This document shows, piece by piece, positions 5,031-58,700 of a stretch of DNA of 64,000 nucleotides; within the stretch, counting starts at the first letter, position 1; each line of letters starts with the position of its first letter. The notes beneath the pieces were generated by a model. That model saw only the letters and a program-made list of their open reading frames with translations. It searched no databases and had not been told where the DNA came from. Source of the stretch: Permianibacter fluminis (GTDB lineage Bacteria > Pseudomonadota > Gammaproteobacteria > Enterobacterales > Permianibacteraceae); the NCBI RefSeq assembly GCF_013179735.1, contig NZ_JABMEG010000002.1, positions 1 to 64,000 on the forward strand, written 5' to 3'. Position numbers and translations under genes: made by a program.

Positions 5031-6221
5031 ATGTCGAAGGAAAAGTTTGAACGTACAAAGCCCCACGTGAACGTGGGCACCATCGGTCACGTTGACCATG
5101 GCAAGACCTCGCTGACGGCAGCGCTGACCATTGTCACCGCGCGCAAGTACGGCGGCGAAGTCAAGAACTACGCGGACATCGACGCGGCGCCGGAAGAGCG
5201 CGCGCGCGGTATCACCATCAACACCGCTCACGTCGAATACGAATCGGCCAACCGCCACTACGCGCACGTTGACTGCCCGGGCCACGCTGACTACGTCAAA
5301 AACATGATCACCGGTGCTGCCCAGATGGACGGCGCGGTGCTGGTCGTGTCGGCTGCCGACGGTCCGATGCCGCAAACCCGCGAACACATCCTGCTGTCGC
5401 GCCAAGTCGGCGTGCCGTACATCGTCGTGTTCCTGAACAAGTGCGACATGGTCGACGACGCCGAGCTGCTCGAGCTGGTCGAAATGGAAGTGCGCGAACT
5501 GCTGAGCGCCTATGACTTCCCGGGCGACGACACCCCGATCATCCGCGGTTCGGCCAAGCTCGCCATCGAAGGCGACCAAGGCGAATTCGGCGAACAAGCG
5601 ATCATGAAGCTGCTGGAAGCGCTGGACACCTACATCCCGCAACCGGAGCGCGCGATTGACAAGCCGTTCCTGCTGCCGGTCGAAGACGTGTTCTCGATCT
5701 CGGGTCGCGGTACCGTCGTGACTGGTCGTGTTGAGCGCGGCATCGTCAAAGTCGGCGAAGAAATCGAAATCGTCGGCCTGAAAGACACCGTCAAGACCAC
5801 CGTCACCGGCGTCGAAATGTTCCGCAAGCTGCTCGACGAAGGTCGTGCGGGCGACAACGTTGGCGTGCTGCTGCGCGGCACCAAGCGTGAAGACGTCGAG
5901 CGTGGTCAAGTGCTGGCCAAGCCGGGCTCGATCAAGCCGCACACCAAGTTCGAATCGGAAGTGTACGTGTTGTCGAAAGAAGAAGGCGGTCGTCACACCC
6001 CGTTCTTCAAAGGCTACCGTCCGCAATTCTACTTCCGTACGACCGACGTGACGGGCGCCATCGAACTGCCGGAAGGCGTCGAGATGGTGATGCCGGGCGA
6101 CAACATCAAGATGGTGGTGACCCTGATCGCCCCGATCGCGATGGACGACGGTCTGCGTTTCGCGATTCGCGAAGGCGGCCGTACCGTTGGCGCCGGCGTT
6201 GTTGCCAAGATCATTGCCTAA
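5031..6221 (+). CDS. tuf: Elongation factor Tu, first copy
   Basis: EF-Tu delivers aminoacyl-tRNA to the ribosomal A site and hydrolyses GTP. The 396-residue protein shows G1 GHVDHGKTS, the G2 region [13 protein letters not shown]3 DCPGHADY, G4 NKCD and G5 GSAKL, followed by beta-barrel domains II and III. GGAGG lies just before the start. It is cotranscribed with the four tRNAs upstream, the tufB position. The protein is identical to the copy at 22113. By eye the two genes differ at only about seven silent sites, while flanking DNA is unrelated, which points to gene conversion. Confidence 0.98.
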
Positions 6222-43638: not shown

Positions 43639-44997
43639 ATGACTCCTGACACCCGTCTGACAGCAGTGGAACGTCGCGCCGCGTTTACGCTCGCCGCGAT
43701 CATTGCGTTCCGCATGCTCGGCCTTTTCATGTTGCTGCCGGTCATGACCACCTATGGCGCCAGCCTGCACGGGTATACCCCAACCCTGGCCGGGCTGGCC
43801 GTCGGGATTTACGGTTTCTCGCAGGCCTGTTTCCAGATTCCGCTCGGCCGGCTGTCCGATACGTGGGGCCGGCGCCGGGTGATCACCCTCGGCTTGCTGT
43901 TGTTCGCACTGGGCGCGCTGGTCGCCGCGCTGTCGGACTCCATTTACGGGGTCATTGTCGGCCGCGCCATTCAAGGCGCCGGAGCTGTCTCCAGTGCGGT
44001 GATGGCGCTGGCTGCCGACCTGACTGACGAACGCCGGCGCAGCAAGGTCATGGCAATCATTGGCATGACCATCGGTGCCGCCTTCATCCTGGCGTTTCTT
44101 GGCGGGCCGCTGCTGGCGAGTCTCGGCGGCCTTGCAGCCGTGTTCTGGGCGACTGTCGGGTTGGCGCTGATCGGCCTGTTGATCACCCACACCGCGTTGC
44201 CGACGGCGCAGACGGCGGTCGCTGCCGGCGACGGCCAAGCTCGCTGGGCGACGCTATGGCCGCTGCTGCGCGCGGGCGATCTGCCGCGTCTGGCCGTTGG
44301 CATCTTCGTGCTGCACTTTGTCATGACGGCAATGTTCATGGTGGTGCCGCAGAAACTGATCGGGTTTGGCATTGGCCGGGCCGACCATGCCCATATCTAT
44401 TTGCCCGTGTTGATAGCCGGTGCGCTGTTGATGGCGCCGCTGCTGCGGCTCGCCGAAAAACGCAGCTGGCACAAACCGATTCTGCTCGGTTGCGTGCTGC
44501 TGATGGCAATCGCGCTGGCCATGCTCGCGCTGCCGTCACTGCCGGTGCTGGTCGCCGGTCTGGCGCTGTATTTTCTGGCGTTCAACTGGCTGGAAGCGTC
44601 ATTGCCGTCCTGGCTGTCGCGCATTGTCCCGGCCGGTCACAAAGGAACCGCGATGGGGTTTTACGCCAGCGCGCAATTTCTCGGTGCGTTTGTCGGTGGC
44701 GCGTTCGGCGGCATCGTGCTGCAACACGCCGGTGCCGGCATGGTGCTGGCGCTGGCCGGTGCCGCCGCCTTGCTCTGGTGCCTGATCGCCATCTGGCAAC
44801 AACCGTTGCCGCATTGGCAGGCGCTGCAGTTGCGCGCGCCTGAAGAGAGCCTGGCCGAACTGGCAACGCGCATGCAGGCGCTGGATGGTGTGATTGACGT
44901 GATCCTGCGGCCCGAGCAACAAACCGTCGAGCTGCGCTATGACGCGCGTCGGCTCAGCGAGCGCGAACTGAAAGAATTGACGGCGCGGCCGTCCTGA
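43639..44997 (+). CDS. YajR-like major facilitator superfamily transporter
   Basis: The 452-residue protein has twelve predicted membrane helices with MFS motif A, GRLSDTWGRRRVI, between TM2 and TM3, and motif-C-like GPLLASLGG. The last about 60 residues (MQALDGVIDVILRPEQQTVELRYD) look like the soluble YAM domain of E. coli YajR, which has nearly the same length (454). Substrate unknown; proton-driven drug efflux is the usual guess. The uvrA-MFS-ssb order is common in gammaproteobacteria. An in-frame extension to 43456 overlaps uvrA and is rejected. Confidence 0.85.
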   Translation: MTPDTRLTAVERRAAFTLAAIIAFRMLGLFMLLPVMTTYGASLHGYTPTLAGLAVGIYGFSQACFQIPLGRLSDTWGRRRVITLGLLLFALGALVAALSDSIYGVIVGRAIQGAGAVSSAVMALAADLTDERRRSKVMAIIGMTIGAAFILAFLGGPLLASLGGLAAVFWATVGLALIGLLITHTALPTAQTAVAAGDGQARWATLWPLLRAGDLPRLAVGIFVLHFVMTAMFMVVPQKLIGFGIGRADHAHIYLPVLIAGALLMAPLLRLAEKRSWHKPILLGCVLLMAIALAMLALPSLPVLVAGLALYFLAFNWLEASLPSWLSRIVPAGHKGTAMGFYASAQFLGAFVGGAFGGIVLQHAGAGMVLALAGAAALLWCLIAIWQQPLPHWQALQLRAPEESLAELATRMQALDGVIDVILRPEQQTVELRYDARRLSERELKELTARPS

Positions 44998-45004
44998 CGG
45001 AAAC

Positions 45005-45026
45005 GTCACCGAGCGGCCTCGGTGAC
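45005..45026. terminator. Hairpin between convergent MFS and kinase genes
   Basis: GTCACCGAG (45005-45013) pairs perfectly with CTCGGTGAC (45018-45026) around CGGC. No U-run on either strand; it lies eight bases after the MFS stop. Confidence 0.5.
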
Positions 45027-45093
45027 ATAAGCACGAGCAACCCTCTTCGCGGCGTCATCTGACTGACGTTTACGGATTGGCCAGTTGTGATTT

Positions 45094-45149
45094 GCCTTTC
45101 ACAACAGCCTATTTACGACACGCTATTCACAACAAGCTATTCACAACAG
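45094..45149. repeat. Degenerate 14-bp tandem repeat at the kinase 3' end
   Basis: Two exact GCTATTCACAACA units (45122-45134 and 45136-45148) follow two degenerate ones (GCCTTTCACAACA and GCCTATTTACGACA). The last unit contains the stop codon of the kinase gene. Confidence 0.7.
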
Positions 45150-46676
45150 GCTCAGCGGCAACCGCACTTCAGCGATGCAGCCCGGCCCATCGTTTCGATT
45201 GCGCAATTGCAGCGTACCGTCATGGGCCTCGGCGATCTGCCGACTCAGCACCAAGCCAATGCCAGAACCGCCCGCCTTGGTCGAATAAAACGGCACAAAC
45301 AGGTTAGCGCTGTTGCCAAGGCCGGGGCCGTGATCACGAATTTGCAAACGCAACTGCTGGCGGTCGACATCGGCCAGCAGTTCGATCGGCGCCGGGGCAG
45401 CCGCCATGGCTTCGCGGGCATTTTTCAGCAAATTGATCAGCAGTTGTTCCAGTTGCACCGGGTCGGCAAACAGCGTTACCGCCGGTTCCGGCAACTGCAT
45501 CTGCAGCGGAGTTTCCGGCAGCAGCGCCGGTAGCCGGGCCAGCAAGTCCCGGACACTTATCGGGCGCTTGTTGGGTGGTGGCAACCGGGCCAGATCCGCG
45601 TAGCGGCGAATGAATTCCGTCAGGCTTTGCGCGCGCAGGTGTATCACCTGTAGACCTTCCTGCAAATCGTCACGGAGCGAGGCGAGCGCGTCGCCGCTGC
45701 TTGCCATTGCTTTTTCATGGGACGTATCGATTGCAAAGGACGTATCGGCTACACCGGAAGCGTCTGCTGTAACGGAAGAATCTGCTGTAGTGGAAAAGTC
45801 TGCTGCACGTGATGCGCTTGCTTTGCTGAACGCATTGGTGGCGCTATCTGACGTTGCGGGCGCGGTGCTCGACGTAGCGGCCAACAAACTTTGCAGGCTG
45901 GCGCTGACCGACGCGATCGGTGCCAACGAGTTGTTCACTTCATGGCTCAGCACCCGGATCAACCGTTTCCAGGCATTCAGCTCTTCGGCGCGCAGCACCC
46001 GCTTCAAATCGGTGACAAACAGCAGTTGCTGCGGCTGGCCCTGTTCCATGAAAATTTCCGACTGCACGCGCCAGATGCCAGTGGCGCCAGCGAACTCATG
46101 ATCCATTACTCGCTGGCCTGCTTCCGCCAGCAAGGGCAGCACACCCAATTCGCTCGCCGGGCGTTGCTGCAGCGCGGGCCAGTCGGCGCCGAGCAGCTGG
46201 CACGCCGCGGGATTGGCCAGGGTCAGCCGCTGCTGCGGATCAAACGCCAAAATGGCGACATCGATATCGCGGATCACTTTGTCGAGCAGGCGCTGGGTTT
46301 CTTCTGTGCGCAGCCGCTGATCGCGCAGACGCCGCGCCAGGCTGTTGATTTCCTGCACCAGCTCGCCGTAACCGCCGGCATCGCCTTGAACCCGGCCGCG
46401 CAAACTGAAATCGCCCAGCCGCACCGCCTCAACCAGATTGCTCAGCATGCGCCATTGGTTCGCCAGCCGTTGCCGTAACACCCAGGCACTGCCGAGCCAG
46501 AGCAAGGTCACCAGTACCGTCAGCAGCAAACGCGGATGCAGCGACAGCAGTGGCTGCGACCACAGCAGCCAACACAGTGCAGCAACCGCTGGCGCACCGG
46601 CGGCTAGCACCAGCAATGCCAGCCGGGTTTCCAGCGCCGAAAACCAGCGCGATTGCAACGCGGCGAGCGCTTTCAC
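45141..46676 (-). CDS. NtrY-like sensor histidine kinase
   Basis: A 511-residue membrane kinase. Two helices at residues 13-50 leave little or no periplasmic loop, so it probably senses at the membrane or in the cytosol. A HAMP-like segment (about 60-110) and a PAS domain (about 115-225) follow. The H-box RVLSHEVNNSLAPI puts the phosphorylated His at 245. The ATPase lobe has LLKNAREA (N box), DHGPGLG (G1) and GGSGIGLVLSRQI (G2). An odd insert of about 68 residues (266-333) splits the two dimerisation helices and holds five ADxSxx repeats. GTG 46676 overlaps the regulator stop (GTGA). Partner of the regulator upstream. Confidence 0.88.
   Translation of the reverse strand: MKALAALQSRWFSALETRLALLVLAAGAPAVAALCWLLWSQPLLSLHPRLLLTVLVTLLWLGSAWVLRQRLANQWRMLSNLVEAVRLGDFSLRGRVQGDAGGYGELVQEINSLARRLRDQRLRTEETQRLLDKVIRDIDVAILAFDPQQRLTLANPAACQLLGADWPALQQRPASELGVLPLLAEAGQRVMDHEFAGATGIWRVQSEIFMEQGQPQQLLFVTDLKRVLRAEELNAWKRLIRVLSHEVNNSLAPIASVSASLQSLLAATSSTAPATSDSATNAFSKASASRAADFSTTADSSVTADASGVADTSFAIDTSHEKAMASSGDALASLRDDLQEGLQVIHLRAQSLTEFIRRYADLARLPPPNKRPISVRDLLARLPALLPETPLQMQLPEPAVTLFADPVQLEQLLINLLKNAREAMAAAPAPIELLADVDRQQLRLQIRDHGPGLGNSANLFVPFYSTKAGGSGIGLVLSRQIAEAHDGTLQLRNRNDGPGCIAEVRLPLSLL
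45714..45803 (-). repeat. Five 18-bp units encoding ADxSxx hexapeptides
   Basis: Read on the minus strand, residues 292-321 of the kinase are ADFSTT, ADSSVT, ADASGV, ADTSFA and IDTSHE. The DNA units keep the GCAGAY...TCC framework every 18 bases. The repeat lies in the loop between the two dimerisation/phosphotransfer helices. Confidence 0.85.
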
Positions 46677-48073
46677 AGCTGAAATTTTTCCAGCCGGCGA
46701 TAAAACGCCGAACGGCTCAGCCCTAGGGCCTTGGCGGCGGCCATGGCATTGCCATCGTGTTTTTTCAGTGCGGCGGTCAGCAGCTGCCTTTCCACTTCGT
46801 CCAGCGTCAAACCGGACCAGTCCGGTGCGGCGGTTGCGGCGGCAGCGCCAGTGGCTGCCGCGTTTACGTGGCCGTGGCCTGCCGGTTCCGGCAGCGCCAA
46901 ATCGCTGCGCTGGATTTGCTGGCCGCGTGCCAGCAGCACTGCGCGTTCCAGACAATGGCGCAATTCGCGGACGTTGCCCGGCCAATAATGTTCGCGCAGC
47001 GCAGCACGGGCGTCGGTGGCAAGCGTGAGCTGGTCGCGCTGATACTTGTTGGCGTAAAGCTGACAGAAATGATCCGCCAGCAGATCGATGTCGCTGTCGC
47101 GCTCACGCAGTGCCGGCACGTGCAGCTCAATGCCGTTCAGCCGATACAACAAGTCCTGGCGAAACTTGCCATCGCGCACCAGCGCCGGCAAATCGGCGTT
47201 GGTCGCCGCAATGATGCGGACATCGACATGCTGACTGCGACTGCTGCCCACTTTCTCAAATTGGCCGCTCTCCAGCACGCGCAGCAACTTGGCCTGCTGC
47301 GGTAACGGCAGGTTGCCGACTTCATCGAGAAACAGGGTGCCACCATCGGCCAGCTCGAAGCGACCGAGCCGGGTTTCCTTGGCATCGGTGAAGGCGCCTT
47401 TTTGATGACCGAACAATTCGCTTTCAAACAAATTTTCCGGTATCGCACCCATGTTGACATTGACCAGGCTGCGGGCATGGCGGGCCGAATGCTGATGCAG
47501 CCACTGCGCCAACTGACTTTTGCCGGTGCCGTTTTCGCCGGTCAACAAAATATTGATGTCGGTGCCGGCCACACTGGCGGCTTTCTTCATCAGCTGCTGC
47601 ATCGGCGCCGATTGTCCGAGCCAGCTGTCGTGCTGGGCGGCCTGTTTCAGCAGCGCGTTTTCCTGGCTCAGCCGGGCGCTGCCGCGGCGCTCGCTACCGA
47701 GCTGAATCAGGTTGTGGATGATGGTGTTCAGCCGGGTGTTGTCCCACGGCTTTTCAATGAAGTCATTGGCGCCACTGCGCATCGCGCTGACCGCAATGTC
47801 GATGGTGCCCCAACCGGTCATGGCGACAATCGGCAGATCGGTATCCAGCGCGCGCACGGCGCGGATCAACGCCATGCCTTCATTGCCGGATGTGGTGTCA
47901 CGATCGTAATTCAGATCCATCAACAGCAAGGCGTAATCGGATTTTTTCAGCGCGGCCAATGCCTCGGCGGGCGTGCTGACGGTGTCGCAGCGATAGCCGG
48001 CCGCTTTCAGCTGCAGGCGCAGTGCGCTCAATACACTGCTGTCGTCATCGGCTATCAGGATCGTGGCAGTCAT
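46673..48073 (-). CDS. NtrC-family sigma54-dependent response regulator
   Basis: A 466-residue activator. The receiver (1-120) has acidic D9-D11, phospho-acceptor D53 in LLMDLNYD and K108. The AAA+ domain (about 150-370) has Walker A GENGTGKS at 179-186, Walker B GGTLFLD at 244-250 and the sigma54 contact loop GAFTDA at 226-231, in place of the classical GAFTGA. An Ala-rich linker (399-417) leads to a Fis-type helix-turn-helix (about 426-463). It should drive sigma54 promoters when phosphorylated by the kinase that overlaps its stop. The near-consensus sigma54 promoter at 53002 heads the same gene row, so autogenous control of the exporter is inferred. Confidence 0.92.
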   Translation of the reverse strand: MTATILIADDDSSVLSALRLQLKAAGYRCDTVSTPAEALAALKKSDYALLLMDLNYDRDTTSGNEGMALIRAVRALDTDLPIVAMTGWGTIDIAVSAMRSGANDFIEKPWDNTRLNTIIHNLIQLGSERRGSARLSQENALLKQAAQHDSWLGQSAPMQQLMKKAASVAGTDINILLTGENGTGKSQLAQWLHQHSARHARSLVNVNMGAIPENLFESELFGHQKGAFTDAKETRLGRFELADGGTLFLDEVGNLPLPQQAKLLRVLESGQFEKVGSSRSQHVDVRIIAATNADLPALVRDGKFRQDLLYRLNGIELHVPALRERDSDIDLLADHFCQLYANKYQRDQLTLATDARAALREHYWPGNVRELRHCLERAVLLARGQQIQRSDLALPEPAGHGHVNAAATGAAAATAAPDWSGLTLDEVERQLLTAALKKHDGNAMAAAKALGLSRSAFYRRLEKFQL

Positions 48074-48088
48074 GCGTATTCCAAAGAA

Positions 48089-48109
48089 ATCGGGCGCCGA
48101 GCGCCCGAT
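48089..48109 (-). promoter_or_regulatory. Hairpin 15 bases before the regulator start
   Basis: ATCGGGCGC (48089-48097) pairs perfectly with GCGCCCGAT (48101-48109). On the minus strand TTTCTTT follows, so it could attenuate transcription into the regulator or affect its weak ribosome-binding site. Confidence 0.5.
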
Positions 48110-48235
48110 GCGTTACCGTTTCTGATCACGGCAGCAATTCCGGCCACCGGATATTCCAGCAATTGGCACCGAGCAACCGGTCTGGCGATGTGTCATGCAG
48201 CGGTGATTAATTCACTGCGGCCGATTCATCTTACT

Positions 48236-48268
48236 ACCGGGCCGGCCCTCGCAACAGCCCGGCCCGGT
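48236..48268 (-). terminator. GC-rich hairpin right after the permease gene
   Basis: ACCGGGCCGG (48236-48245) pairs with CCGGCCCGGT (48259-48268) over ten base pairs, two bases from the permease stop. No U-run; may separate exporter genes from regulator genes by partial termination or RNA processing. Confidence 0.5.
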
Positions 48269-48270
48269 GC

Positions 48271-50691
48271 TCACTCATAGCGCAGGGCCGATGCCGGTGA
48301 CAGCCGAATGGCGCGCCACGCCGGTACCAACGTTGCGGTGGCAACCAAGGCGCCGACCAGCAGCAACACGGCGACGGTAATGAGCAGACGGGCGTCGTCG
48401 ACTGCGTACAGGATGGAGGCGACCGTTTGGGTCATCAGCAGCCCGAGGCAGACACCGATCACGCTGCCGATGACAAAACGCAGCCCGCCCTGACGCAGCA
48501 ACAGCAGCAGGATATGGTCTTCCGGTGCGCCAAGCGCGCGGCGAACGCCGAGCTCCTGCGTGCGCAGTGCCACCGCGCGGGCAATCACGCCGTACATGCC
48601 GCTGCCGGCCAGCAATATGCCCAGCGCCGCGAAAGCCAGGAACAAATTGGCGACAAAGCGCAGGCCGGCAACACTGCGATCCAGACGGGTCGAAAGGCTC
48701 ATGATGTCCTGCAACGGCAGATCGGCATCGATGCGCTGCACGGCACTGGTGAGCGGCAATGCCAGCGCCATCGGTTCGCCGTTGGTCGCCAGCGAAATCA
48801 TCATGTCTTCGTCGGGCAGTTGCCGGAACGACAGATAGAATTCTGGCAGCGTGGCCACATCGGATTGCGGGGCGCCGTAAATCACATCACCGACCACGCC
48901 GATCACCGTATACCATTTGCGCGCGTCGTCGGCGTGTTGATAGCCGAGATCGATGCGTTTACCGATGGCTTCCTGTCCTGGCCAATTGGTTTCAGCAAAG
49001 CGGGCACTGATAATCACGACGCGTTCGCTTTCAGCCTGATCGCGACTGTCGAACAAGCGACCATTGATCAAGCTGATGCCATACAGCCGGAAGTATTGGT
49101 CGCTGGTCACCACGCGAGTGGCGCTAGGGTAGTGCCGATCCGGCACGTCAACCCCTTCGACTTGATAGGTCCAGACCGGACCGTATCGACCGGGCACGTG
49201 ACAGGACAGGGCAAACGCCTCGATGCCGGGCGTATTCGCCAGATCATTTTCCAGCCGCTCGCTGAACCGGACCATGTTTTCTGGTTGATCATAAATGCCG
49301 CGATACAAGTCGAGCGATGCAGTCAGCACGCCATTGGTGCGGGCACCGTAATCAGCGGCGGCGATATTGCGCGATGAGGCGACCAGAGTCAGTGCGGCAA
49401 TCAGTAGCGCTACCGACAGCGCAATTTCGGTCACCACCAGGACATTCGTCATCCGGGTCAGCTGCAGACTTTGTGCGCCACGGCTGCCGTCGCGCAGGTA
49501 GCGATTCAAATCGCCGGCGCTGGCTTGCAGTGCCGGATACAAACCGATGCCGAGTGCGGTCAGCACGGTCAGCAGCAGCGCCAGCCACAAGGTTTGACTA
49601 TCGAAGCTGAACTGCCACCAGAACGGCAACACATTCGCCATCGTGTAGAACTGCTGTTTGCTCCAGAGCAAGGCCCAGCTGGCAAAGAACAGACCGATCA
49701 AACCGCCACCCAGCGCCAGCAGCAATGCTTCCCACAGCATCTCCCGCACCAAACGATGGCGCGGCGCACCGAGCGCAGCACGCATGGAAATTTCTTTTTT
49801 TCGCTCGGCGGCGCGCGCCAGCAACAGATTGCCGGCGTTCAGCACCACCAACAGCAGAATAAAGATGGCGGCACCGATCAGCAGCGCGATGATCACCATC
49901 GAACCGGCCATTTCCTGCTGAGTATGCGGCAGCAACTGAAAACTGAAATTGGCATTGGTTTCCGGTGATTGCTGCTCCAATCGTTTGGCAATGGTCTTCA
50001 ATTCGGCATCGGCAGCGCTGAGGCTGGAGTCGGCTTTCAATTTGCCGATCAGCCGGCCATAGGGGCCGCCACCGGGGCGCATGACGCCACTGCGCATCGG
50101 CACCCACATTTGCGCGGTATCCGGAAAGGCGTAATCGCGTGGCATGACGCCGACGACTGTCGCCGGTTCGTCATCGAGTTTGACCGCCCGACCGATCACG
50201 TTGGCATCGCCATTGAAATCGCTTTGCCAGACCTGCCAGGACAACACCGTCACCGGTGCGGCATTGGCGGTGAAGTCGTCCGGCTGCAGCGTCCGGCCGA
50301 GCAGTGCCGGCACGGCCGTTATCTCAAACGGACTGCTGTTGCTGTAGTTGTAAGTCATTATCTGCCGCGGCGCGGCGATGCCGGACAGCATGGTGTGGGT
50401 GTTGCGTGCCAGCGCTAGCTGTTCAAACTGGGTTTGGCTTTGGCTCAGCTGTTGAAAGTCATACCAGCCGACCGAGTTGCCGCCTTGTTCCTTGCCGTTG
50501 ATGAGACCGCCGGCCGAGACAATCCGATCGCTGTCCGGGTAGGGCAATTTGGCATAGGCCAGTGTTGTCACCAGCACGTACATGTAAATGGCCGTGCCCA
50601 ATCCTGCCGCCAGCACAAACAAAGTCAGGGCAGTAAAGCCCGGCGTTTTGCCAAGTAGACGCAGGGCATATTGAATTTCACGCCACATCAC
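48271..50691 (-). CDS. Duplicated FtsX/MacB-type ABC permease (ADOP-like)
   Basis: An 806-residue permease made of two repeats, each a large periplasmic MacB-like domain plus FtsX helices. It has a first helix at about 18-42, three helices in about 265-400 with the coupling segment RAAERKKEISMRAALGAPRHRLVREML, then helix 420-440, a second periplasmic domain (about 445-680) and three last helices with RTQELGVRRALGAPEDHILLLLLRQG. Such duplicated permeases do the work of a MacB dimer in one chain. Fed by the ATPase at 50784. Type VII ABC mechanotransmission (MacB-like, moving periplasmic substrates) is expected; substrate unknown. Confidence 0.9.
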   Translation of the reverse strand: MMWREIQYALRLLGKTPGFTALTLFVLAAGLGTAIYMYVLVTTLAYAKLPYPDSDRIVSAGGLINGKEQGGNSVGWYDFQQLSQSQTQFEQLALARNTHTMLSGIAAPRQIMTYNYSNSSPFEITAVPALLGRTLQPDDFTANAAPVTVLSWQVWQSDFNGDANVIGRAVKLDDEPATVVGVMPRDYAFPDTAQMWVPMRSGVMRPGGGPYGRLIGKLKADSSLSAADAELKTIAKRLEQQSPETNANFSFQLLPHTQQEMAGSMVIIALLIGAAIFILLLVVLNAGNLLLARAAERKKEISMRAALGAPRHRLVREMLWEALLLALGGGLIGLFFASWALLWSKQQFYTMANVLPFWWQFSFDSQTLWLALLLTVLTALGIGLYPALQASAGDLNRYLRDGSRGAQSLQLTRMTNVLVVTEIALSVALLIAALTLVASSRNIAAADYGARTNGVLTASLDLYRGIYDQPENMVRFSERLENDLANTPGIEAFALSCHVPGRYGPVWTYQVEGVDVPDRHYPSATRVVTSDQYFRLYGISLINGRLFDSRDQAESERVVIISARFAETNWPGQEAIGKRIDLGYQHADDARKWYTVIGVVGDVIYGAPQSDVATLPEFYLSFRQLPDEDMMISLATNGEPMALALPLTSAVQRIDADLPLQDIMSLSTRLDRSVAGLRFVANLFLAFAALGILLAGSGMYGVIARAVALRTQELGVRRALGAPEDHILLLLLRQGGLRFVIGSVIGVCLGLLMTQTVASILYAVDDARLLITVAVLLLVGALVATATLVPAWRAIRLSPASALRYE

Positions 50692-50783
50692 GGTGATTCC
50701 TTTTTCGGGCTGCCGAATGTGGCAGCAATAAAATGTTCAGCGCGCGCTGGTCGTAAACTGCAAACCGCGAACCACAACACGCA

Positions 50784-51521
50784 TTACGCCGCGACGGTAC
50801 GCTGGTGTGCGCTGGCATCGAGCGGGCTGTCACTGCGTAGACTGTCGTCGACAATGCGGCCATCAAACAGCGTGATTTGACGCTGGGCGGCCTGCGCGGA
50901 GCGTGGGTCGTGGGTGACCATGACAATGGTGGCGCCTTCGCGATGCAGGGCTTTCAGCAAATCCATCACCATTTCGGCGTTGCGCGAATCCAGATTGCCG
51001 GTCGGCTCGTCGGCGAGCAGCAACGACGGTTTCCCGGCCAGCGCCCGGGCAATGGCGACCCGCTGCTGTTGCCCGCCGGAAAGCTGGCTCGGGTAGTGAT
51101 GGCTGCGGTGACTCATGTCGACCTTGGCCAAGGCATCAATTGCCAGTTGGTGCCGCTCGGCTTTGCTCAGGTCGTCGCGATAGCTGAGCGGCAGCTCGAC
51201 GTTCTCCAGCACGTTCAGATCCGAGATCAGGTTGAACGCCTGAAAAATGAAACCGATTTCGCGGTTGCGCACCCGGGCGCGTTCGCGGTTGTTCAACTGG
51301 TCAACGCGCTGGCCGGCCAATTGGTATTCGCCTTCGGTGGCGGCATCGAGCAGGCCGAGCACCGACAGCAGGGTCGATTTGCCGCAACCGGACGGTCCGG
51401 AGATGGACACGTATTCGCCGCGGTTGATGTTCAGGTAAATGCTGTTCAGTGCCAGCGTTTCCACTTCGTCGGTGAGAAAGGATTTGCCGACATTGCTGAG
51501 ATGGATCACGGTCTGTTGCAT
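50784..51521 (-). CDS. MacB/LolD-type ABC transporter ATPase
   Basis: A 245-residue ATPase with Walker A GPSGCGKS (42-49), Q-loop FQAFN, signature LSGGQQQRVA (from 147), Walker B LLLADEP (167-173) and H-loop VTHD. TGNLDS is typical of the MacB/LolD/FtsE group. AAGGAGAACAAC precedes the ATG. Lies between the adaptor and permease genes, so all three form one tripartite pump with an outer-membrane channel supplied from elsewhere. Confidence 0.94.
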   Translation of the reverse strand: MQQTVIHLSNVGKSFLTDEVETLALNSIYLNINRGEYVSISGPSGCGKSTLLSVLGLLDAATEGEYQLAGQRVDQLNNRERARVRNREIGFIFQAFNLISDLNVLENVELPLSYRDDLSKAERHQLAIDALAKVDMSHRSHHYPSQLSGGQQQRVAIARALAGKPSLLLADEPTGNLDSRNAEMVMDLLKALHREGATIVMVTHDPRSAQAAQRQITLFDGRIVDDSLRSDSPLDASAHQRTVAA

Positions 51522-51578
51522 GTTGTTCTCCTTTGCGTTTGTTTCAATTTAAGGAAGCCTTGAACAAGTCGCCAACCA

Positions 51579-51663
51579 CCGTTCGTGGTGAGCTTGTCGA
51601 ACCACAGAAGGCTGATATGCCGCCGTAATTCAGGTCACCCTTCGACAGGCTCAGGGTGAACGG
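51579..51663. repeat. Palindromic interspersed repeat, TTCGACAAGCTCA type
   Basis: CCGTTCGTGGTGAGCTTGTC (from 51579) is mirrored by CACCCTTCGACAGGCTCAGG (51636-51655) ending GTGAACGG. This pair is a common intergenic repeat in many proteobacteria. It fills the adaptor-ATPase gap. Confidence 0.7.
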
Positions 51664-51687
51664 GGACTTAAACAGAGCCTCCGTCAT

Positions 51688-52959
51688 TCAGTTCAACTCA
51701 ATCCGCTCCGGGTCACCCCAGAGCGTGGTGTCGTTCAGCACAATCCGGTCGCCCGGCTGCAAGCCGGTTTTGATTTCAATGACGTTGACTGATGCTTGGC
51801 CAAACTGCACCGGAATGCGCTCGGCGTGATCGCCATCGGTCAGCCGGTAGACACGGGTTTGCTGGTTGGCTTGGCTCAATGCGGGCCGCGGCACAAACCG
51901 GGCGTTTGCCAGTGCAGCGATTTGCACTGTGCCATCGACACTCAGATCCGGCCGCGCGCCTTTGGGCAGCGCGTCGGTCAGCGTGACATCGACTTTGACC
52001 ATGCCATTGGCAACGGCGGGATCAATGCGGGTGACCGTGCCTGTTACCACGCCAATGCGGGTGTCGATGCTGGCGAGCTGGTTCAGCGCCAGATCGCGCG
52101 CCTGCTGTTCCGGAATTTTCAGCTCAGCGTACAGCGCGGCCGGGTCAGCCAATTTGGCAATGTTGCCGCCGATGATCAGCCGCTGGCCCGGCTCCAGTGG
52201 CAGCGCTTGGACAATGCCGGCTATCGGCGCCCGCACCGTCAGTGCCGCGACTTGTTCTTTGCTACGCAGATACTGTTTGCGCAGTTTCTCCACTTGCGCG
52301 TCTTTGGCGCTCAGCTGGGCGCGAACATTGTTGTCGAAATGGTGGAGCCGGTCTTGTTCAATGCGCAGGGTTTCGGCCAGTTGCTGCACGTTCAGCTGGG
52401 TGCGCTTGTGATCCAATGCGGAAATGACTTGGCCTTTGTCGGCAATCAGCCGCGCTTCGGCATCGAGCTGCAACTTGGCGCTGTTGTAGGCGAACTCCGC
52501 TTTGACCACGGTGGTTTGCTGATTCAGTTGCTCGCTGGCCAGCGCCACTTTCAATGCGCTGTATTCCGCCTGCATGGCTTCCAGTGACCAGCGGATTTCT
52601 TCCTCGGCCTGCTGCAGCGCCGGGTTGCTGAGCTCGACCAGCACATCGCCGGCGGCGACGGCGCTGCCAGCCTTGGCGTTCACCTGTTCAACCCGGCCTT
52701 CCACCTGGGCTGCGACCCAGCGTACCGTGACCGGCAGCAACAGGCCGGTGCCATGGACGCGGACATCAAACGCGCCCTCGCTGACCGTACCGAGCGTGAC
52801 GGCCGCCCGGGCAACCCGATAACCGGCCGGGTTCAATGCCATCTGGCTGTATGCCAGTGCCGCCGTGACGGTCAGGCCGGCGAGCAGCCAGAGCGCGTGG
52901 CGTTTGTGCCAGCGCGGTGTCGAGGCAGGGCGGAGGCGGTCCATTGCGTGGGCGGTCAT
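51688..52959 (-). CDS. HlyD/MacA-type periplasmic adaptor protein
   Basis: A 423-residue membrane-fusion protein. It has one N-terminal anchor helix (about 19-42) and barrel-sandwich halves (AAQVEGRVEQVNAKAGSAVAAGDVLVEL; TVRAPIAGIVQALPLEPGQ), split by a coiled-coil hairpin of about 110 residues. Beta-barrel and membrane-proximal domains follow (GDRIVLNDTTLWGDPERIEL). First gene of the exporter unit, 32 bases after the inferred sigma54 start site. ATG 52959 or 52944 could be used; neither has a strong ribosome-binding site. Confidence 0.9.
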   Translation of the reverse strand: MTAHAMDRLRPASTPRWHKRHALWLLAGLTVTAALAYSQMALNPAGYRVARAAVTLGTVSEGAFDVRVHGTGLLLPVTVRWVAAQVEGRVEQVNAKAGSAVAAGDVLVELSNPALQQAEEEIRWSLEAMQAEYSALKVALASEQLNQQTTVVKAEFAYNSAKLQLDAEARLIADKGQVISALDHKRTQLNVQQLAETLRIEQDRLHHFDNNVRAQLSAKDAQVEKLRKQYLRSKEQVAALTVRAPIAGIVQALPLEPGQRLIIGGNIAKLADPAALYAELKIPEQQARDLALNQLASIDTRIGVVTGTVTRIDPAVANGMVKVDVTLTDALPKGARPDLSVDGTVQIAALANARFVPRPALSQANQQTRVYRLTDGDHAERIPVQFGQASVNVIEIKTGLQPGDRIVLNDTTLWGDPERIELN

Positions 52960-53001
52960 GGTGTTGGCAGATGCACGTAGGGGGGCAGATGCCGGGAATA
53001 T

Positions 53002-53017
53002 CGCAAGCGCCGTGCCA
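53002..53017 (-). promoter_or_regulatory. Sigma54 promoter of the exporter unit
   Basis: Read on the minus strand: TGGCACG, GCGC, TTGCG. This matches the TGGCACG-N4-TTGCW consensus at all but the last base and keeps GG and GC at exact -24/-12 spacing. The start would be near 52991, 32 bases before the adaptor ATG. A sigma54 activator is encoded in the same gene row. Confidence 0.8.
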
Positions 53018-53051
53018 TATCGCTAACGTATTGAAATCATGGGGATTGTCT

Positions 53052-53123
53052 GATTTTCCCGGCGGCGCCGGACCGGCCGGGTTTCGAATCCGGGACGGCA
53101 GCAAACGGGAAAATCCCGAAACC
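53052..53123 (-). promoter_or_regulatory. Palindrome cluster, candidate activator-binding sites
   Basis: GATTTTCCCG (53052-53061) and CGGGAAAATC (53106-53115) form ten-base inverted arms. The second also belongs to CGGGAAAATCCCG (53106-53118) and overlaps ATCCCG-AAAC-CGGGAT (53113-53128 region). They lie about 60-135 bases upstream of the inferred sigma54 start, the usual distance for NtrC-type sites. Confidence 0.5.
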
Positions 53124-53168
53124 GGGATCAAATCCTGCGCCCGAAACGGCGAAAGCCATGCAATCGTG

Positions 53169-53197
53169 ATGACCGGCCCGGCCCGGCTCGCTACAAT
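53169..53197 (+). promoter_or_regulatory. Sigma70 promoter of ssb
   Basis: ATGACC (53169-53174), 17 bases, then TACAAT (53192-53197): four and five matches to consensus. Start near 53204. Confidence 0.6.
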
Positions 53198-53289
53198 CCG
53201 CCCCGGACCGGTCGCCAATGACCGGACCTCAGCCACCCGCGACCGGGACTCTCACTGATACGCCCGCCTCGCAAGCAAGGAGAATCACC

Positions 53290-53790
53290 ATGGCCAGCCG
53301 TGGTATCAACAAAGTCATTCTGATCGGCAATCTCGGCAAAGATCCGGAAATCCGTTACACCCCGTCCGGCGATGCCATTGCCAACCTGACGCTCGCCACC
53401 AGTGAAAGCTGGAAGGACAAGCAAAGCGGCGAACAAAAAGAACTGACCGAATGGCACCGCGTGGTGGCCTACGGCCGCTTGGCCCAAATCATGGGCGAGT
53501 ACCTGAAGAAAGGTTCCAAGGTTTACGTCGAAGGCAGCTTGCGCACCCGCAAGTGGCAAGACAAAGACGGCCAGGATCGCTACACCACTGAAATCCGCTG
53601 CAACGAAATGCAGATGCTCGATGGTCGCGGCGGTGGTGGCGGTGGCAGCGCCGGCTATGACGAAGGCGGCCAAAGCGGCGGCAGCTACGGCGGCGGCCAG
53701 CAAGGCGGCGGTCGTCAACAAGCGGCAAAACCGGCGATGGCCGATCAAGGCTTCAACGAGCCGGCCTTTGATGACGATATTCCGTTCTAA
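53290..53790 (+). CDS. ssb: Single-stranded DNA-binding protein
   Basis: The 166-residue SSB has an OB fold (1-110: [52 protein letters not shown]), a Gly/Gln-rich linker (about 117-150) and the acidic tip DDDIPF that recruits repair and replication proteins. ATG 53290 follows AAGGAG; the frame is open upstream without homology. Normally next to uvrA and the MFS gene; here the exporter unit lies between. Confidence 0.97.
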
Positions 53791-53798
53791 ACGGATGG

Positions 53799-53831
53799 AA
53801 AAAAAAGGCGCCGAATGGCGCCGTTTTTTTT
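53799..53831 (+). terminator. Intrinsic terminator of ssb
   Basis: GGCGCC (53807-53812), loop GAAT, GGCGCC (53817-53822), flanked by an A-run and eight T. Strong terminator. Confidence 0.92.
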
Positions 53832-53970
53832 CAATTTATGGTGCGCAAGCGATCCAAGAATTGACCTCCTGCTTGCTGAGGCTCCGCCAATGAGATCAAA
53901 CTGCGACAAACTGAAAGTCCGCTGGCGCCCCTGGATTGTTTGAACTTAGCATCGCCAGATGCACAGAGCC

Positions 53971-54001
53971 TTGGATGAAAAGAGTTCGGTGCGAGTATAA
54001 A
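53971..54001 (+). promoter_or_regulatory. Possible promoter before the 54088 gene
   Basis: TTGGAT and TATAAA with a 19-base spacer, about 85 bases before the gene. The spacer is longer than ideal, so this is a weak call. Confidence 0.25.
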
Positions 54002-54087
54002 GGTGTCTTGTTAACTTATCGAAAACGACAAGAATCGAAGCCCCAGGTAATCTTGCTTCGGCTATCACTAGCAGAGTTGAGTCACTT

Positions 54088-54474
54088 ATGTCTGAACTGA
54101 AGAAAGTTATCGCAGTGGCGTTTTCTACACCAAGCATTCTGGTCGTGCTTTCCCTTGTTGTTTTCGGTCTCGGATTTGCTCTGTGTAAGTTTCCAACTGA
54201 TAAAGGCTTACGCAAGAACATGATCGGACTTTTCTGGGCAATCTGCGTCGCCATTGAACTGGTTTGGGGGATGCAGCAACAGTACAACGTGCTGAGCGGT
54301 GCGACAGCCCCAACATCCGAGCAGCCTGTTGCCGTCACCATCAAAGGAGTGATTCGATATGTCTCAGAGGAGCAGGCTGTTCGCCATTCTCTGGCGACAT
54401 GGGTGTTCTGGCTAGCATTTTTGGCGCTTCTGGCAACTCATGTGTTTTTCTTTCGTGAGAAAAGCGATAAATAG
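54088..54474 (+). CDS. Unknown small membrane protein
   Basis: I do not recognise this 128-residue protein. It has three hydrophobic segments (about 12-33, 45-63 and 103-121), a polar stretch between the second and third (residues 66-100) and a charged C-terminal tail REKSDK. Base composition is more AT-rich than neighbours. It lies between the ssb terminator and a 39-bp repeat copy, with no obvious operon partner. Ribosome-binding site weak. Confidence 0.55.
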   Translation: MSELKKVIAVAFSTPSILVVLSLVVFGLGFALCKFPTDKGLRKNMIGLFWAICVAIELVWGMQQQYNVLSGATAPTSEQPVAVTIKGVIRYVSEEQAVRHSLATWVFWLAFLALLATHVFFFREKSDK

Positions 54475-54510
54475 ATTAACTCAATCTGAATTCGTTCTCC
54501 GTTTATCAGT

Positions 54511-54549
54511 TCTCGTAGCCTCGATTAGCGAAGCGTGATCGAGGTCAAA
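54511..54549 (+). repeat. 39-bp direct repeat, copy 1
   Basis: Starts TCTCGTAGCCTCGATTAGCG and contains the inner palindrome CCTCGATTA/TRATCGAGG. It differs from copy 2 (55105-55143) by one base (G at 54537 against A at 55131). Confidence 0.85.
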
Positions 54550-54603
54550 CAGACAAGACCTATTGGGGCTGTTCTTCTCTGCCTTACTGACACAGGAGGT
54601 CAT

Positions 54604-55095
54604 ATGGGCCCTATCGAAGTCGTTGCTGCAATCATCACTGCTGCTGGTGGCAGCGCCGTCATTGTTGCCGGACTTGCCGCCTGGCTTGGCAAGCTGTGGC
54701 TGGATCGCGCCGCCAATCTGAACAAGCTGCTGGGTGATGTCGATGTGGATTTGCGCAAGCGCCGCATCGAAGTCTATGGCGAGCTGTGGAAACTCACGGC
54801 CATTCTGCCGAAATGGCCGCGCGACCAAACCGTTACCTACGAGCAATTGCAGGCTTTCAGCCAGATGTTACGCGGCTGGTATTACGAGCGCGGCGGCATG
54901 TATCTGTCGCGGAGCACTCATAAGCAGGGCTACGGTCCGCTACAAGACCAATTGCAAACGCTGCTGTCCGCAGGCAAGAGTGGAAAAATAACGGATGTCG
55001 ATTACGATGTCGTGCGAGAAAAGTGCAGCTATTTGCGTAGCTGCCTGGCCAGCGATATCGAATCCCGGCGCGAGGGGCTGGACCCGAATAGCTAG
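54604..55095 (+). CDS. Unknown membrane-anchored protein
   Basis: A 163-residue protein with one N-terminal membrane helix (about 5-30, Ala/Gly/Val-rich) and a helical, charged cytosolic part. Patterns such as RRIEVYGELWKLTAILPKW, LRGWYYERGGMYLS and LRSCLASDIESR recur, as I recall, in unnamed bacterial proteins; no function is known to me. ATG 54604 follows a near-perfect AGGAGG at 54593-54598, which decides against the GTG at 54535. The gene is bracketed by the two 39-bp direct repeats. Confidence 0.65.
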   Translation: MGPIEVVAAIITAAGGSAVIVAGLAAWLGKLWLDRAANLNKLLGDVDVDLRKRRIEVYGELWKLTAILPKWPRDQTVTYEQLQAFSQMLRGWYYERGGMYLSRSTHKQGYGPLQDQLQTLLSAGKSGKITDVDYDVVREKCSYLRSCLASDIESRREGLDPNS

Positions 55096-55104
55096 TAAGC
55101 TGGC

Positions 55105-55143
55105 TCTCGTAGCCTCGATTAGCGAAGCGTAATCGAGGTCAAA
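55105..55143 (+). repeat. 39-bp direct repeat, copy 2
   Basis: Same orientation as copy 1, 594 bases downstream, 38 of 39 bases identical. The inner palindrome CCTCGATTA/TAATCGAGG is perfect here. The core resembles the widespread GATTAGCG-type intergenic repeats of gammaproteobacteria. Confidence 0.85.
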
Positions 55144-55236
55144 TGGGCGCAGCTCATTTGATGAGTGTTTTGCCGTGAGAGCAAAAGAATAGTGCCGTAG
55201 TCTGTCGCAACGTTACTGCCGGACATTCCCGACAAA

Positions 55237-55314
55237 GCCCCCAACCCTGGCCCGTCCATTGGGACGGTTTGTAATTCCTCGCTTCACCCCCCTTGCAGGG
55301 GAGGGCGTTGGGGC
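55237..55314. repeat. Degenerate C/G-rich inverted repeat
   Basis: GCCCCCAACCCT (55237-55248) faces AGGGCGTTGGGG (55302-55313) with inner CCCTTGCAGGG. Looks like a worn copy of a CCCCAACCC-type interspersed repeat. Confidence 0.5.
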
Positions 55315-55364
55315 TACTGATTGACGTGATGCGGACGCAGGCAATCGAACAGGAGCAGTCTTTC

Positions 55365-55790
55365 ATGATGCAAGGACACACCGGCGGCTGTTACTGCGGC
55401 AATCTTCACTTCACCATGCAGCTGGCGAACGGTGCGTCGAGCTACCAGCCGCGCGCCTGCGATTGCGATTTCTGCTGCAAGCATGGTGCGGCCTGGTTGT
55501 CGGACCCGGCCGGCTCGCTGTACATCACGGTTGAGGATTCCACGCAACTACGCCGGTTTCGACAAGGCTCGGAGCAGGCCGAATTTCTGCTCTGTGGCCA
55601 ATGTGGTGTGCTGATTGGCGTTTGCTATCAGCAAGCCGGACAACGGTTCGCGGCGGTCAATGTCCGCGCGGTGGCGAGTTCCAGCTTCGCTGCCGTGGTG
55701 CCTGCATCGCCCAAGCAGTTGTCTGCCAGCGAGAAAACCGCGCGCTGGCTTCGGCTCTGGTTTCCCAACGTGGTATTGAAAACTGTCTAG
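55365..55790 (+). CDS. GFA-family (CENP-V/GFA domain) zinc protein
   Basis: A 141-residue protein with the GFA zinc pattern: GGCYCG near the start, CDCDFC in the middle and CGQCG after it. The founder protein speeds addition of glutathione to formaldehyde, but most relatives have no tested activity. ATG 55365 is preferred over ATG 55368 and upstream codons because AGGAG sits nine bases before it. The stop overlaps the stop of the facing kinase gene (shared CTAG at 55787-55790). Confidence 0.8.
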   Translation: MMQGHTGGCYCGNLHFTMQLANGASSYQPRACDCDFCCKHGAAWLSDPAGSLYITVEDSTQLRRFRQGSEQAEFLLCGQCGVLIGVCYQQAGQRFAAVNVRAVASSSFAAVVPASPKQLSASEKTARWLRLWFPNVVLKTV

Positions 55791-58700
55791 CCAATATCTG
55801 AATCGATGTTTGATGCTAACGGTGATAAAACGGCCAAAGCCGTGGAAAAATCCAGATCTGTCATCGCTTTGTCCAGTCTTTGTAGCTCTTGGTCGCTTAG
55901 TTTGTCAGCAAAACTTCCACGCAAGGCTGGATAACGATTCGCGGCAGAAAGTTTGCGTTGTGTCAGTTGCTGCAAGAATTCATCAAACTCCGTCGCTGAT
56001 AACGCCTTCTCGCGCTGATTGCCCGGGGCAGAATCTTGCACGCCCAACACGCTTTTGAGGGAGGCTAGTAACTGTGCGAGTTCCTGCTCGAACTGTAAAA
56101 AGAGGCGCTCAACATCTGCAGTGTTGCCAGACTTAATTGCGACTTCAATGTGTTCGGTGCAGGTGATAAAGCTGCGCGAGCCGAACATGCCAATTGATCC
56201 CCGCAAGGAGTGAAAATGCCGTGCCACCGTATCGGTCTGTCCCGAACTCCACAGCGCGCGAGCGGTGGTGAGTGGCTCCATCCCGCGTTCCAATACTTTC
56301 CTTGCCAGCGCATTGAGAGCAAGACGGACTGCATTGTCCTTGCCCATTGATGCCAACTTATTTTCAAGCTCAGACACGTTTTGCTCCGCCTGTACTGTGG
56401 CCGATAAATCGGTTGCCAGCGGGGCCGAGGCAGTCATCGAGCCTTTCGAAATCGCCTGCCCAGTCAGCAGCGATTGAATGACCGCCATCATTTGCGGAAC
56501 TTCAATGGGCTTGCCAATAAAGCCATTCATGCCAGCGGCATTGCAGGCGGCGCGTTCTTCAGTCAATACCCCGGCACTCATTGCAATAATTGGCAGCGTG
56601 AGGTTCAATTCCGCTCGAATTCGTCGGGTTGCCGAAATGCCATCAAGAACCGGCATTTGAATATCCATCAGTACCAAATGAAATGAGGACGGTGCCGCGT
56701 TCAGAATCTCAAGGGCGATCGCGCCATTTGCGGCCATCGTGACTGTTGCCCCCGCCCCCTCCAATATCCCTCGTGCGACGACCTGATTGAACTCGTTGTC
56801 CTCCACTACAAGAATGGAAGTGCCTGCTAGAGCGGCGGTGTGATCTGGAGTGAGAAGCGCTGCAGAATTTGTGTGCCCCTGCACACCCTTATAGTCCAAT
56901 AGTTCCAGTGCAATGTCATAGAGCGTAGAGCCTGAAATTGGCTTGACCAGTATCGCCTCAGCGATCCCCGCTTCTTGTTGCCTCTTGGACAGCGCTTCCT
57001 GTCGATACGGGTTTGCCATCAGCGCAATCCGCAACGTACTGGGCTGTGCGAGTCGACGGAGCTCCTCAACCTTGTTCTCACCCTGTGCTTCGATCAGTTT
57101 CCAGTCGAGCAGTGCCAGGTCAAACGGACTGTCGGATTTGCTTGCCTTGTCAATCATGAGCTCCGCTGATTGAATAGAATCGGAGACGCACGGGGTCCAG
57201 CCCCACGCTGCGACCGTCTTGCCAAGATAGCTTCTGCTGGTTTCGCTATCGTCGACAATGAGCAGCAGCGGCCTGCGCGGTAGCGTAGAGCGTGGTTGTG
57301 TAGGCTCGGCCCTTGAATCCAATGCAAGCGGCAGCGTCACGCAAAACTCGCTGCCCTCACCAACGGCGCTGTTAACGGTGATTTGCCCCTGCATCATTCC
57401 GGTGAGGTGGCGACTGATGGCCAGTCCAAGGCCGGTACCACCGAAGCGTCGTGTTGTTGATGCGTCCGCCTGAGAAAAGGGCGCAAACAGTCTTTCTTGT
57501 TGCGCCTTTGTCATACCAATCCCCGTGTCGCGAACGTGGAATGCCAGTAGCGCACCTGTCTCGCTGGTTGAAATCAGCTTGACCAACACCGCCACTTCGC
57601 CCTTCTCGGTGAACTTCACGGCATTGCTGGTGAGGTTGACCAGTATTTGCTGAATCCGCAGCGAGTCACCGATGAGGTGCTGAGGCGTGTTGGGCTCCAC
57701 TGCTATCGCAAGCTCCAAATCCTTCTCTCTGGAATATACGGACATGATCGTTCCGACAGCGGTCAGTACATCATTCAGGCGGAATGGCTTCAGGTCCAGG
57801 TCGAGTTTGCCTGCCTCGATTTTTGAAAAATCCAGGATGTCATTCAATATTGCGAGTAAATTTTCCCCCGAGACACGGACCATCTCAAGATACTTTCGCT
57901 GGGTGGCGTCAAGCTTTGTGCTGGCCAGCAGTTGTGTCAGGCCGAGTACGGCATTCATCGGTGTGCGAATTTCATGACTCATGTTGGCGAGGAAGTAGGA
58001 TTTTGCTTTGCTTCCGGCATCCGCCTCGTCTTTTGCCGCCCTTAATCTGCCCTCCAACTCCATTTGATCGGTAATGTCGCGGTTGATGCCGGTAACGCGA
58101 ATGACGTTGTTGAATTTATCGCGCTCCAGCTGAGCTCCCGCTTGAATATATCGAGTGCTGCCATCGCGTCGGACAACGCGAAAGATGGGGTCATAAGGTG
58201 GGCCGCCTTGAACCGCAGCAAGCAACCTGCCTTCAGTCGCCTCAACATCATCGGGATGCACGCGGTCCCGCCAGTGCTCGTAGCGCAAGCCGCTGTCACG
58301 CAAGTTCAGCGGTTGGTCATAAATGCGGTACATGCGCTCGTTCCAGGTCAGCACGTTGCTCGCTATGTCCCAGGTCCATACGCCGAGGTCGGCGACCTCA
58401 GATGCCAGGAGCAATTGGTCACGTGCGGATAGAAGAGCATCGCGCTGCTGCTGCAATTCAGTAATGTCGCTAGCGATCCCCAAAAATCCGGTAATGTCAT
58501 TGTTATCGTCACGAATGGCCGTCACCGCGAGATTGACTGTTCGGTGCGAGCCATCGCGCCTCACATAGGTCCAGACCCGGGTTTCGGGACCTTCAGTTTT
58601 TGCTTTGTAGACAAAGACGTCAAATCCGGAGATCGGTCGCCCGTACAACTGGCTCAACTCTCCGGCTCTGGCGACCACCTCGGATTCTAGGTGGAAAGGG

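Follow-up and report, generated by a model that had tools for sequence, protein, structure and literature searches.

Organization of the exporter locus

The window, meaning the whole 64,000-nt stretch of Permianibacter fluminis DNA that was analysed, contains a five-gene row on the minus strand (45141-52959) encoding, in order, a periplasmic adaptor, an ABC ATPase, a duplicated permease, an NtrC-type regulator, and a histidine kinase. The genes of this row, a terminator-like hairpin within it, and the divergent neighbour are located as follows.

53290..53790, plus strand: ssb, divergent from the adaptor gene (domain match)
51688..52959, minus strand: HlyD/MacA-type periplasmic adaptor (Pfam HlyD_D23 and HlyD_3; NCBIfam RND_mfp above cut-off)
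50784..51521, minus strand: LolD/MacB/DarD-like ABC ATPase (Pfam ABC_tran; best NCBIfam model DarD, below the DarD cut-off)
48271..50691, minus strand: duplicated MacB/FtsX-type ADOP-family permease (MacB_PCD and FtsX each match two stretches)
48089..48109, minus strand: terminator-like hairpin, with the regulator start about 16 nt further on (14 terminator-like sites found vs 9.5 expected, a weak excess)
46673..48073, minus strand: NtrC-type response regulator with the L1 loop GAFTDA (Response_reg, Sigma54_activat, and HTH_8; alignment)
45141..46676, minus strand: histidine kinase with a two-helix membrane hairpin, PAS, and HATPase (domains and hydropathy)

The permease scores above the curated cut-off of the ADOP permease family (TIGR03434, 674.7 vs 622.3 bits), and the GTG start codon of the kinase overlaps the stop codon of the regulator. 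The adaptor begins with the ATG at 52959, leaving a gap of 330 nt to ssb; an alternative start at ATG 52944 (MD...) is possible, because several related adaptors seem to open with ATGGA(C/T). The permease and regulator genes are separated by 197 nt containing the terminator-like hairpin, which might set the level of the regulator below that of the exporter; the gap before the regulator in a relative of the same genus (L032) is only about 60 nt.

Elsewhere in the window, ten ORFs were scanned, comprising rpoB, secY, rpoA, a carbamoyltransferase, uvrA, an MFS transporter, and four ORFs without a family. As far as scanned, the module is therefore surrounded mainly by housekeeping genes, and no biosynthetic module was seen among these ten ORFs. 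The genome holds a single copy of rpoN (one Sigma54_DBD match, E 8.2e-69) and gives 21 matches to outer-membrane factors (OEP) at other places, several proteins giving two each, with no OEP gene inside the exporter gene row. An Rfam scan of 44000-56000 returned nothing at gathering scores. Between rpoA and uvrA, the carbamoyltransferase gene occupies 37502-39232 (+) and matches Carbam_trans_N and C. A REP-like element occupies the adaptor-ATPase gap (51583-51656), consisting of CCCTGAGCCTGTCGAAGGG and an inverted partner recognized by eye, and 13 copies of CCCTGAGCCTGTCGAAGGG occur in the genome at no more than one mismatch (control, 0).

Sigma54-type promoter element upstream of the adaptor gene

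The ssb-adaptor gap contains the following element, with its implied transcript start.

53003..53017, minus strand: sigma54-type promoter element TGGCACGGCGCTTGC, exact -24/-12 core TGGCACG-GCGC-TTGC
52991 (about), minus strand: implied transcript start, predicted from the -12 element, 32 nt before the ATG at 52959

Standard sigma54 promoter geometry sets the start position relative to the -12 element. The GG and GC dinucleotides of the -24 and -12 regions are both present at consensus spacing (TGGCACG-N4-TTGC, exact), so that the sequence-only reading, which had placed an exact -24/-12 element on the minus strand 32 nt before the adaptor, was borne out. This is the sole zero-mismatch site in the window, and the 15-base core has exactly three exact copies in the 4.36 Mb genome; three exact sites per 8.7 Mb of strand correspond to about 8e-5 expected in any given 220-nt upstream stretch. 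Looser matches were rejected as evidence, their counts being near those of the controls both in the window (44 at no more than two mismatches vs 39.5 expected from shuffles) and in the genome (166 at no more than one mismatch on both strands vs 134 for the backwards control). Because the one-mismatch counts barely exceed the control, it is the exact match and its position that carry the weight within this genome. No sigma70-like match faces the adaptor in 44900-53350; the one match found, at 53169-53197 (+), lies on the opposite strand and points toward ssb.

Palindromes upstream of the promoter

Further upstream of the -24/-12 site, by 65-111 nt, stand the palindromes listed below.

53113..53128, minus strand: distal enhancer-like palindrome ATCCCGGTTTCGGGAT, with TCCCG-N4-CGGGA (TCCCGGTTTCGGGA) at 53114-53127, a class seen before related operons
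53082..53095, minus strand: degenerate, enhancer-like proximal site TCCCGGATTCGAAA, an imperfect repeat of the distal palindrome at a spacing of 32 bp
53106..53118, no strand assigned: palindrome CGGGAAAATCCCG of the sequence-only reading, exact, with five bases in common with the distal site

The distal palindrome is clean, and the proximal site, at a spacing of 32 bp, is degenerate on one side; their centres are 103 and 71 nt, respectively, upstream of the point where the -24 element begins. Short inverted repeats are plentiful in the region (18 pairs). The clean form TCCCG-N4-CGGGA occurs at three places in the genome, and among the -24/-12 matches listed, none is nearer than 30 kb to the other two.

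A cluster of palindromes before the gene had been claimed from the letters, with CGGGAAAATCCCG as its leading member. Palindromes do exist upstream, and the conserved one is TCCCGGTTTCGGGA; a genome search for CGGGAAAATCCCG was run and gave a single exact copy with 17 further copies at one mismatch (control, 1), and CGGGAAAATCCCG was rejected as the main operator, being absent from the upstream region of L032, in favour of the 5-4-5 palindrome. Composite searches for promoter and palindromes were less productive: a loose pattern gave a modest excess in this genome (25 matches vs 17 in the control), and a strict pattern was found in 1 of 148 genomes with the control also giving 1, which makes it uninformative in this order.

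Comparative survey of related loci

A regulator search of 59 genomes gave a match at E<=1e-60 in 50, paralogues included, and 20 longer stretches were taken from this set, two of them from the genome of the window itself. A further genome scan yielded at least 550 confirmed regulator relatives among at least 591 stretches, of which the best 80 were kept. In total, 101 loci were examined, namely the window and L032-L131. Among the groups named in the records of the relatives are Gammaproteobacteria, Burkholderiales, Acidobacteria, Verrucomicrobia, and Gemmatimonadales. Of the 80 best relatives, 68 have exporter genes (ATPase, permease, or adaptor) linked to the regulator and 75 have a kinase, some contigs being short.

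Promoter-like sites were counted in the 62 loci with a detected adaptor and main regulator, three with incomplete upstream DNA being kept in. The adaptor start was picked by a script rule, and the scan ran from 220 nt before the start to 60 nt beyond it (280 nt). Around the adaptor start, 47 of the 62 loci (46/61 without the window) have a -24/-12-like site with a score of 9.5 or more out of 11.5, compared with 2.3% of 2480 random windows from the same loci and 1.4% of 1092 regions upstream of other mechanical ORFs. After clustering of the regulators at 65% identity, a promoter-like site remains in 24/34. Three of the 15 loci below the cut are those with incomplete upstream DNA, and the signal weakens with distance from the proteobacteria, 5/11 loci from Acidobacteria, Verrucomicrobia, and unassigned bacteria passing. 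In L032, whose regulator and adaptor are 64% and 56% identical to those of the window, the -24/-12-like site is kept and the gap has otherwise diverged.

Among the 47 passing loci, the chosen start codon follows the site by 50-54 nt in 18 and by 27-29 nt in 9. In the latter class (L053, L055, L056, L058, L060, L061, L063, L102, and L131) the transcript start would fall at about the ATG, which suggests either leaderless messages or wrongly chosen start codons, the true ones lying later.

Palindromes were counted in the 55 loci with a promoter score of at least 8.5, the window included, so that these counts presuppose a promoter-like site. Perfect inverted repeats of five bases are overrepresented at spacers of 4, 6, 8, and 12 (26, 25, 27, and 21 of 55 loci, with about 11 expected each). 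An 18-mer model, TGTCCCR-N4-YGGGACA, scores at least 9 in 29/55 upstream regions, 2.3% of shuffles, and 2.9% of the 966 regions that precede other mechanical ORFs; the contrast with the controls outweighs the absolute fit, because the model was derived from these same sequences. Among 34 qualifying pairs, 21 are spaced 32-34 bp and 6 are spaced 21-23 bp (27/34 together), compared with 6 and 5 of 228 pairs in shuffles (11/228), and these spacings fit three and two helical turns. A pair search in 21 chosen loci also gives many low-scoring chance pairs, and strong pairs alone were used. In L032 the palindromes lie at -71 and -104, with the window centres at -71 and -103, and the position of the degenerate proximal site of the window is taken there by a complete palindrome.

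The class of site appears to shift with the residues of the recognition helix of the regulator, a covariation confounded by descent. The class A minus class B site score distinguishes regulators with SRSA helices from those with SRSG helices (p=2e-5, shared descent ignored), and SRQ/TRQ helices differ from SRSA helices in class C site preference (p=1e-4, shared descent likewise ignored); L073 and L082, with SRSAF helices, also show the other site class. A near-perfect GTGTCCG-type palindrome occurs in 3 of 9 loci with SRQ/TRQ helices.

The NtrC-type regulator and its L1 loop

The window regulator contains a receiver, an AAA+ sigma54-activation domain, and a Fis-type HTH. The receiver residues D9, D10, D53, T86, and K108 and residues within the Walker motifs are invariant in a six-sequence alignment, and we take them to have their usual functional roles. 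With variants allowed, the L1 loop belongs to the GAFTGA type; it reads GAFTDA, and the exact glycine is absent. The same loop prevails in the subfamily, with 86 GAFTDA, 5 GAYTDA, 4 GAYTGA, and 4 GAFTGA among 102 regulators and 3 unmatched by the motif.

Passages of a Desulfovibrio study place GAFTDA among the variants held to retain activation (PMC4641369). In the portions used here of a 2023 report on VfmH, the Dickeya relative of the window regulator, vfmE was found to need VfmH; the GAFTDA loop of VfmH and the absence of sigma54 from a pull-down led the authors to leave undecided whether VfmH still contacts sigma54 (PMC10714721). The recurrence of good sigma54-type promoters upstream of GAFTDA-subfamily operons and before the probable vfmE gene described below predicts that the change from G to D keeps the sigma54 contact.

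Topology of the histidine kinase

Hydropathy alone gives the window kinase two transmembrane helices with a loop of about 11 residues and no periplasmic sensor. A PAS_8 domain is present, and the best NCBIfam match is AtoS, far under the AtoS cut-off. Of 95 kinase matches, the 43 that scored 100 or more with the profile and showed an H-box pattern were used, and the hairpin loop has at most 15 residues in 38 of them, again by hydropathy; of the other five, two have long gaps, one of which (L120) shows a hairpin on separate analysis, and three fall under the hydropathy cut. The kinases of this group therefore seem to be without a periplasmic sensor domain, which makes the exporter a candidate receptor. 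Shortly behind the H-box, the window kinase also contains about 69 inserted residues with a high content of Ser, Ala, Thr, and Asp (45680-45887, minus strand), which are absent in the L032 and L052 kinases.

Comparison with known systems

Two Dickeya loci, L068 and L069, encode regulators of the same GAFTDA subfamily that share 53 and 52% identity, respectively, with that of the window. They are probably the vfm quorum-sensing loci, judging from gene content and the published vfmE primer: the divergent gene in L068 is of the AraC type, and the published reverse primer differs by eye at one base in L069 and at three in L068. They lie outside the 62 loci counted above because the adaptor profile found no adaptor there. 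As in the window, a VfmI/VfmH-type pair stands beside a MacB-like exporter with adjacent ATPase and permease genes, and the kinase has a short hairpin. The arrangement of the control region differs. In Vfm a -24/-12-like site and a palindrome lie in the gap before the ATPase, face the AraC-type gene with which that gap is shared, and belong to a locus that makes a signal, whereas the pair in the window faces the exporter and the divergent gene is ssb, with no AraC-type vfmE divergent from the exporter. The region upstream of the probable vfmE contains TGGCACACAATTTGCC, a good -24/-12 element, and a TCCCAT-type palindrome (GTCCCATTAATGGGAT in L068). The best listed exporter-facing -24/-12 site in Dickeya scores 8.5, in L069, and none is listed in L068.

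Three relatives from Rahnella and Pseudomonas, L075, L076, and L099, have a Dickeya-like arrangement, with an opposite-facing second -24/-12-like site in the gap common with the divergent gene (around 5100-5450 in each); this gene is of the AraC type in L075 and L076.

In the BceRS-BceAB antimicrobial peptide modules, a kinase without an extracytoplasmic sensor works with an ABC transporter of the MacB/FtsX superfamily, and the transporter is under co-encoded two-component control. The window shares these features with the Firmicutes modules, for which parts of two publications give some of the background (PMC3023708, PMC9306890). The kinase there has two transmembrane helices and no extracytoplasmic domain, as hydropathy indicates for the window. 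The differences lie in the regulator (OmpR-type there, NtrC-type with sigma54 here), in the permease (BceB with one large extracytoplasmic domain there, a duplicated ADOP permease here), and in the periplasmic adaptor, present in the window and absent from BceRSAB. MacAB and the darobactin exporter DarBCD share with the window an adaptor, an ATPase, and a MacB-like permease, and DarD is the best model for the window ATPase; the window scores under the curated cut-offs of the Dar and MacB models and differs in its separate ATPase, its duplicated permease, and its linked NtrC-type control.

The autoregulated two-component exporter is a known kind of system. A 2025 survey, in the part drawn on here, predicts sigma54 control of ABC systems with FtsX-like permeases and terms this the first evidence (PMC12316311); the target class is the same as ours, and for the exporters that part of the survey names neither an enhancer motif nor a cognate regulator subfamily nor a kinase topology. 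In the open-access full text searched, no description was found of the present exporter/regulator class together with its enhancer motif, nor of the combination of sigma54, a GAFTDA activator, a sensor-less kinase, and an ADOP exporter.

Proposed regulatory circuit and alternative explanations

An autoregulated, sigma54-dependent exporter circuit is the most likely explanation of the locus, and we hold it with good confidence on the strength of the comparison. The ssb-adaptor gap would comprise a sigma54-dependent promoter with two activator sites upstream of it. Once phosphorylated, the NtrC-type regulator, whose gene lies three places further down the row, would occupy the two TCCCG-N4-CGGGA sites as dimers separated by about three helical turns, loop the DNA to the sigma54-RNA polymerase at 53003-53017, and remodel it by ATP hydrolysis, so that the promoter opens and the adaptor-ATPase-permease operon is transcribed. 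Read-through, if it reached the regulator and kinase genes, would add positive feedback, an uncertain step because the terminator-like hairpin precedes the regulator gene. The input to the kinase is most likely relayed within the membrane, plausibly by the permease of the exporter, as suggested for VfmG of Dickeya and described for BceB of Bacillus, and the substrate may be a toxic or signalling small molecule or peptide. The earlier proposal that the exporter is driven through sigma54 by its co-encoded NtrC-type regulator is therefore supported at the level of predicted features: rpoN is present, the regulator domains are complete, and the promoter and palindromes recur above chance before related operons. 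Points that weigh against the circuit are the one-sided degeneracy of the proximal site, the GAFTDA loop together with the negative VfmH pull-down, the loci under the promoter cut, the short site-to-start distances in nine loci, and the weak exporter-facing site in Dickeya.

The exporter itself may sense, given the topology of the kinases, their frequent linkage to exporter genes, and the Vfm precedent, and a reading in which the kinase responds alone to a membrane or cytoplasmic cue, through its PAS domain or the bilayer, with the exporter merely as output, has a substantial though somewhat less than even chance of being right. Intramembrane kinases need not use a transporter, and the PAS_8 domain of the window kinase agrees with such a cue. 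Against it stands the presence of exporter genes in most of the best relatives, together with findings from Dickeya, as given in parts of one publication, where permease polymorphism tracks signal variants and kinase polymorphism does not, and where the permease VfmG is proposed as a co-sensor of VfmI/VfmH, likened to BceB, with VfmI having no predicted ligand-binding domain (PMC9306890).

The genome gives seven regulator matches at E<=1e-60, the window regulator included, hence at least six further enhancer-binding proteins (EBPs), any of which could be imagined to act at a genuine sigma54 promoter as the main ligand of the palindromes, with the co-encoded regulator working elsewhere; the degenerate proximal site would suit such an arrangement. 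We consider it improbable, because the same class of site recurs with the same regulator subfamily across several bacterial groups, the class shifts with the recognition helix of the co-encoded regulator, and the VfmH genetics, in the portion of the report consulted, agree with cognate control.

Chance occurrence of the -24/-12 element and palindromes in GC-rich DNA, with the operon using an ordinary promoter, might be argued from the near-control frequency of one-mismatch sites and the many inverted repeats of the region, yet it is very improbable in view of the exact site on the correct strand at the correct distance, the strong enrichment before homologous operons, and the absence of a sigma70-like match toward the adaptor in 44900-53350. 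Equally hard to credit is a role of the palindromes at ssb, for instance as repressor sites, for although ssb starts at 53290 (+) and the sole sigma70-like match faces it, an ssb match was found in L032 alone among the 20 longer stretches, yet others keep the palindromes before the adaptor.

The autoregulated sigma54 circuit may also be read more broadly, and more tentatively, as one member of a widespread class of transporter-coupled modules. In such modules, a MacB/ADOP exporter would sense its substrate and signal through a sensor-less kinase and a GAFTDA EBP to sigma54, by way of two TGTCCC-N6-GGGACA-type enhancers two or three turns apart. The class could then be the Gram-negative equivalent of need-based control by Bce modules, and its layout the ancestral one from which Vfm-type signalling arose, a generalization that we rate as possible, at a little under an even chance. 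The paired-palindrome motif offers a means of finding targets of GAFTDA-subfamily regulators and turns a guess about one promoter into a testable regulatory code at the level of a family.

A group of sister operons with two permease matches each was also recorded (L041-L043 and L045-L049), whose regulators carry GAFTGA or GAYTGA loops where the motif matched (5/8).
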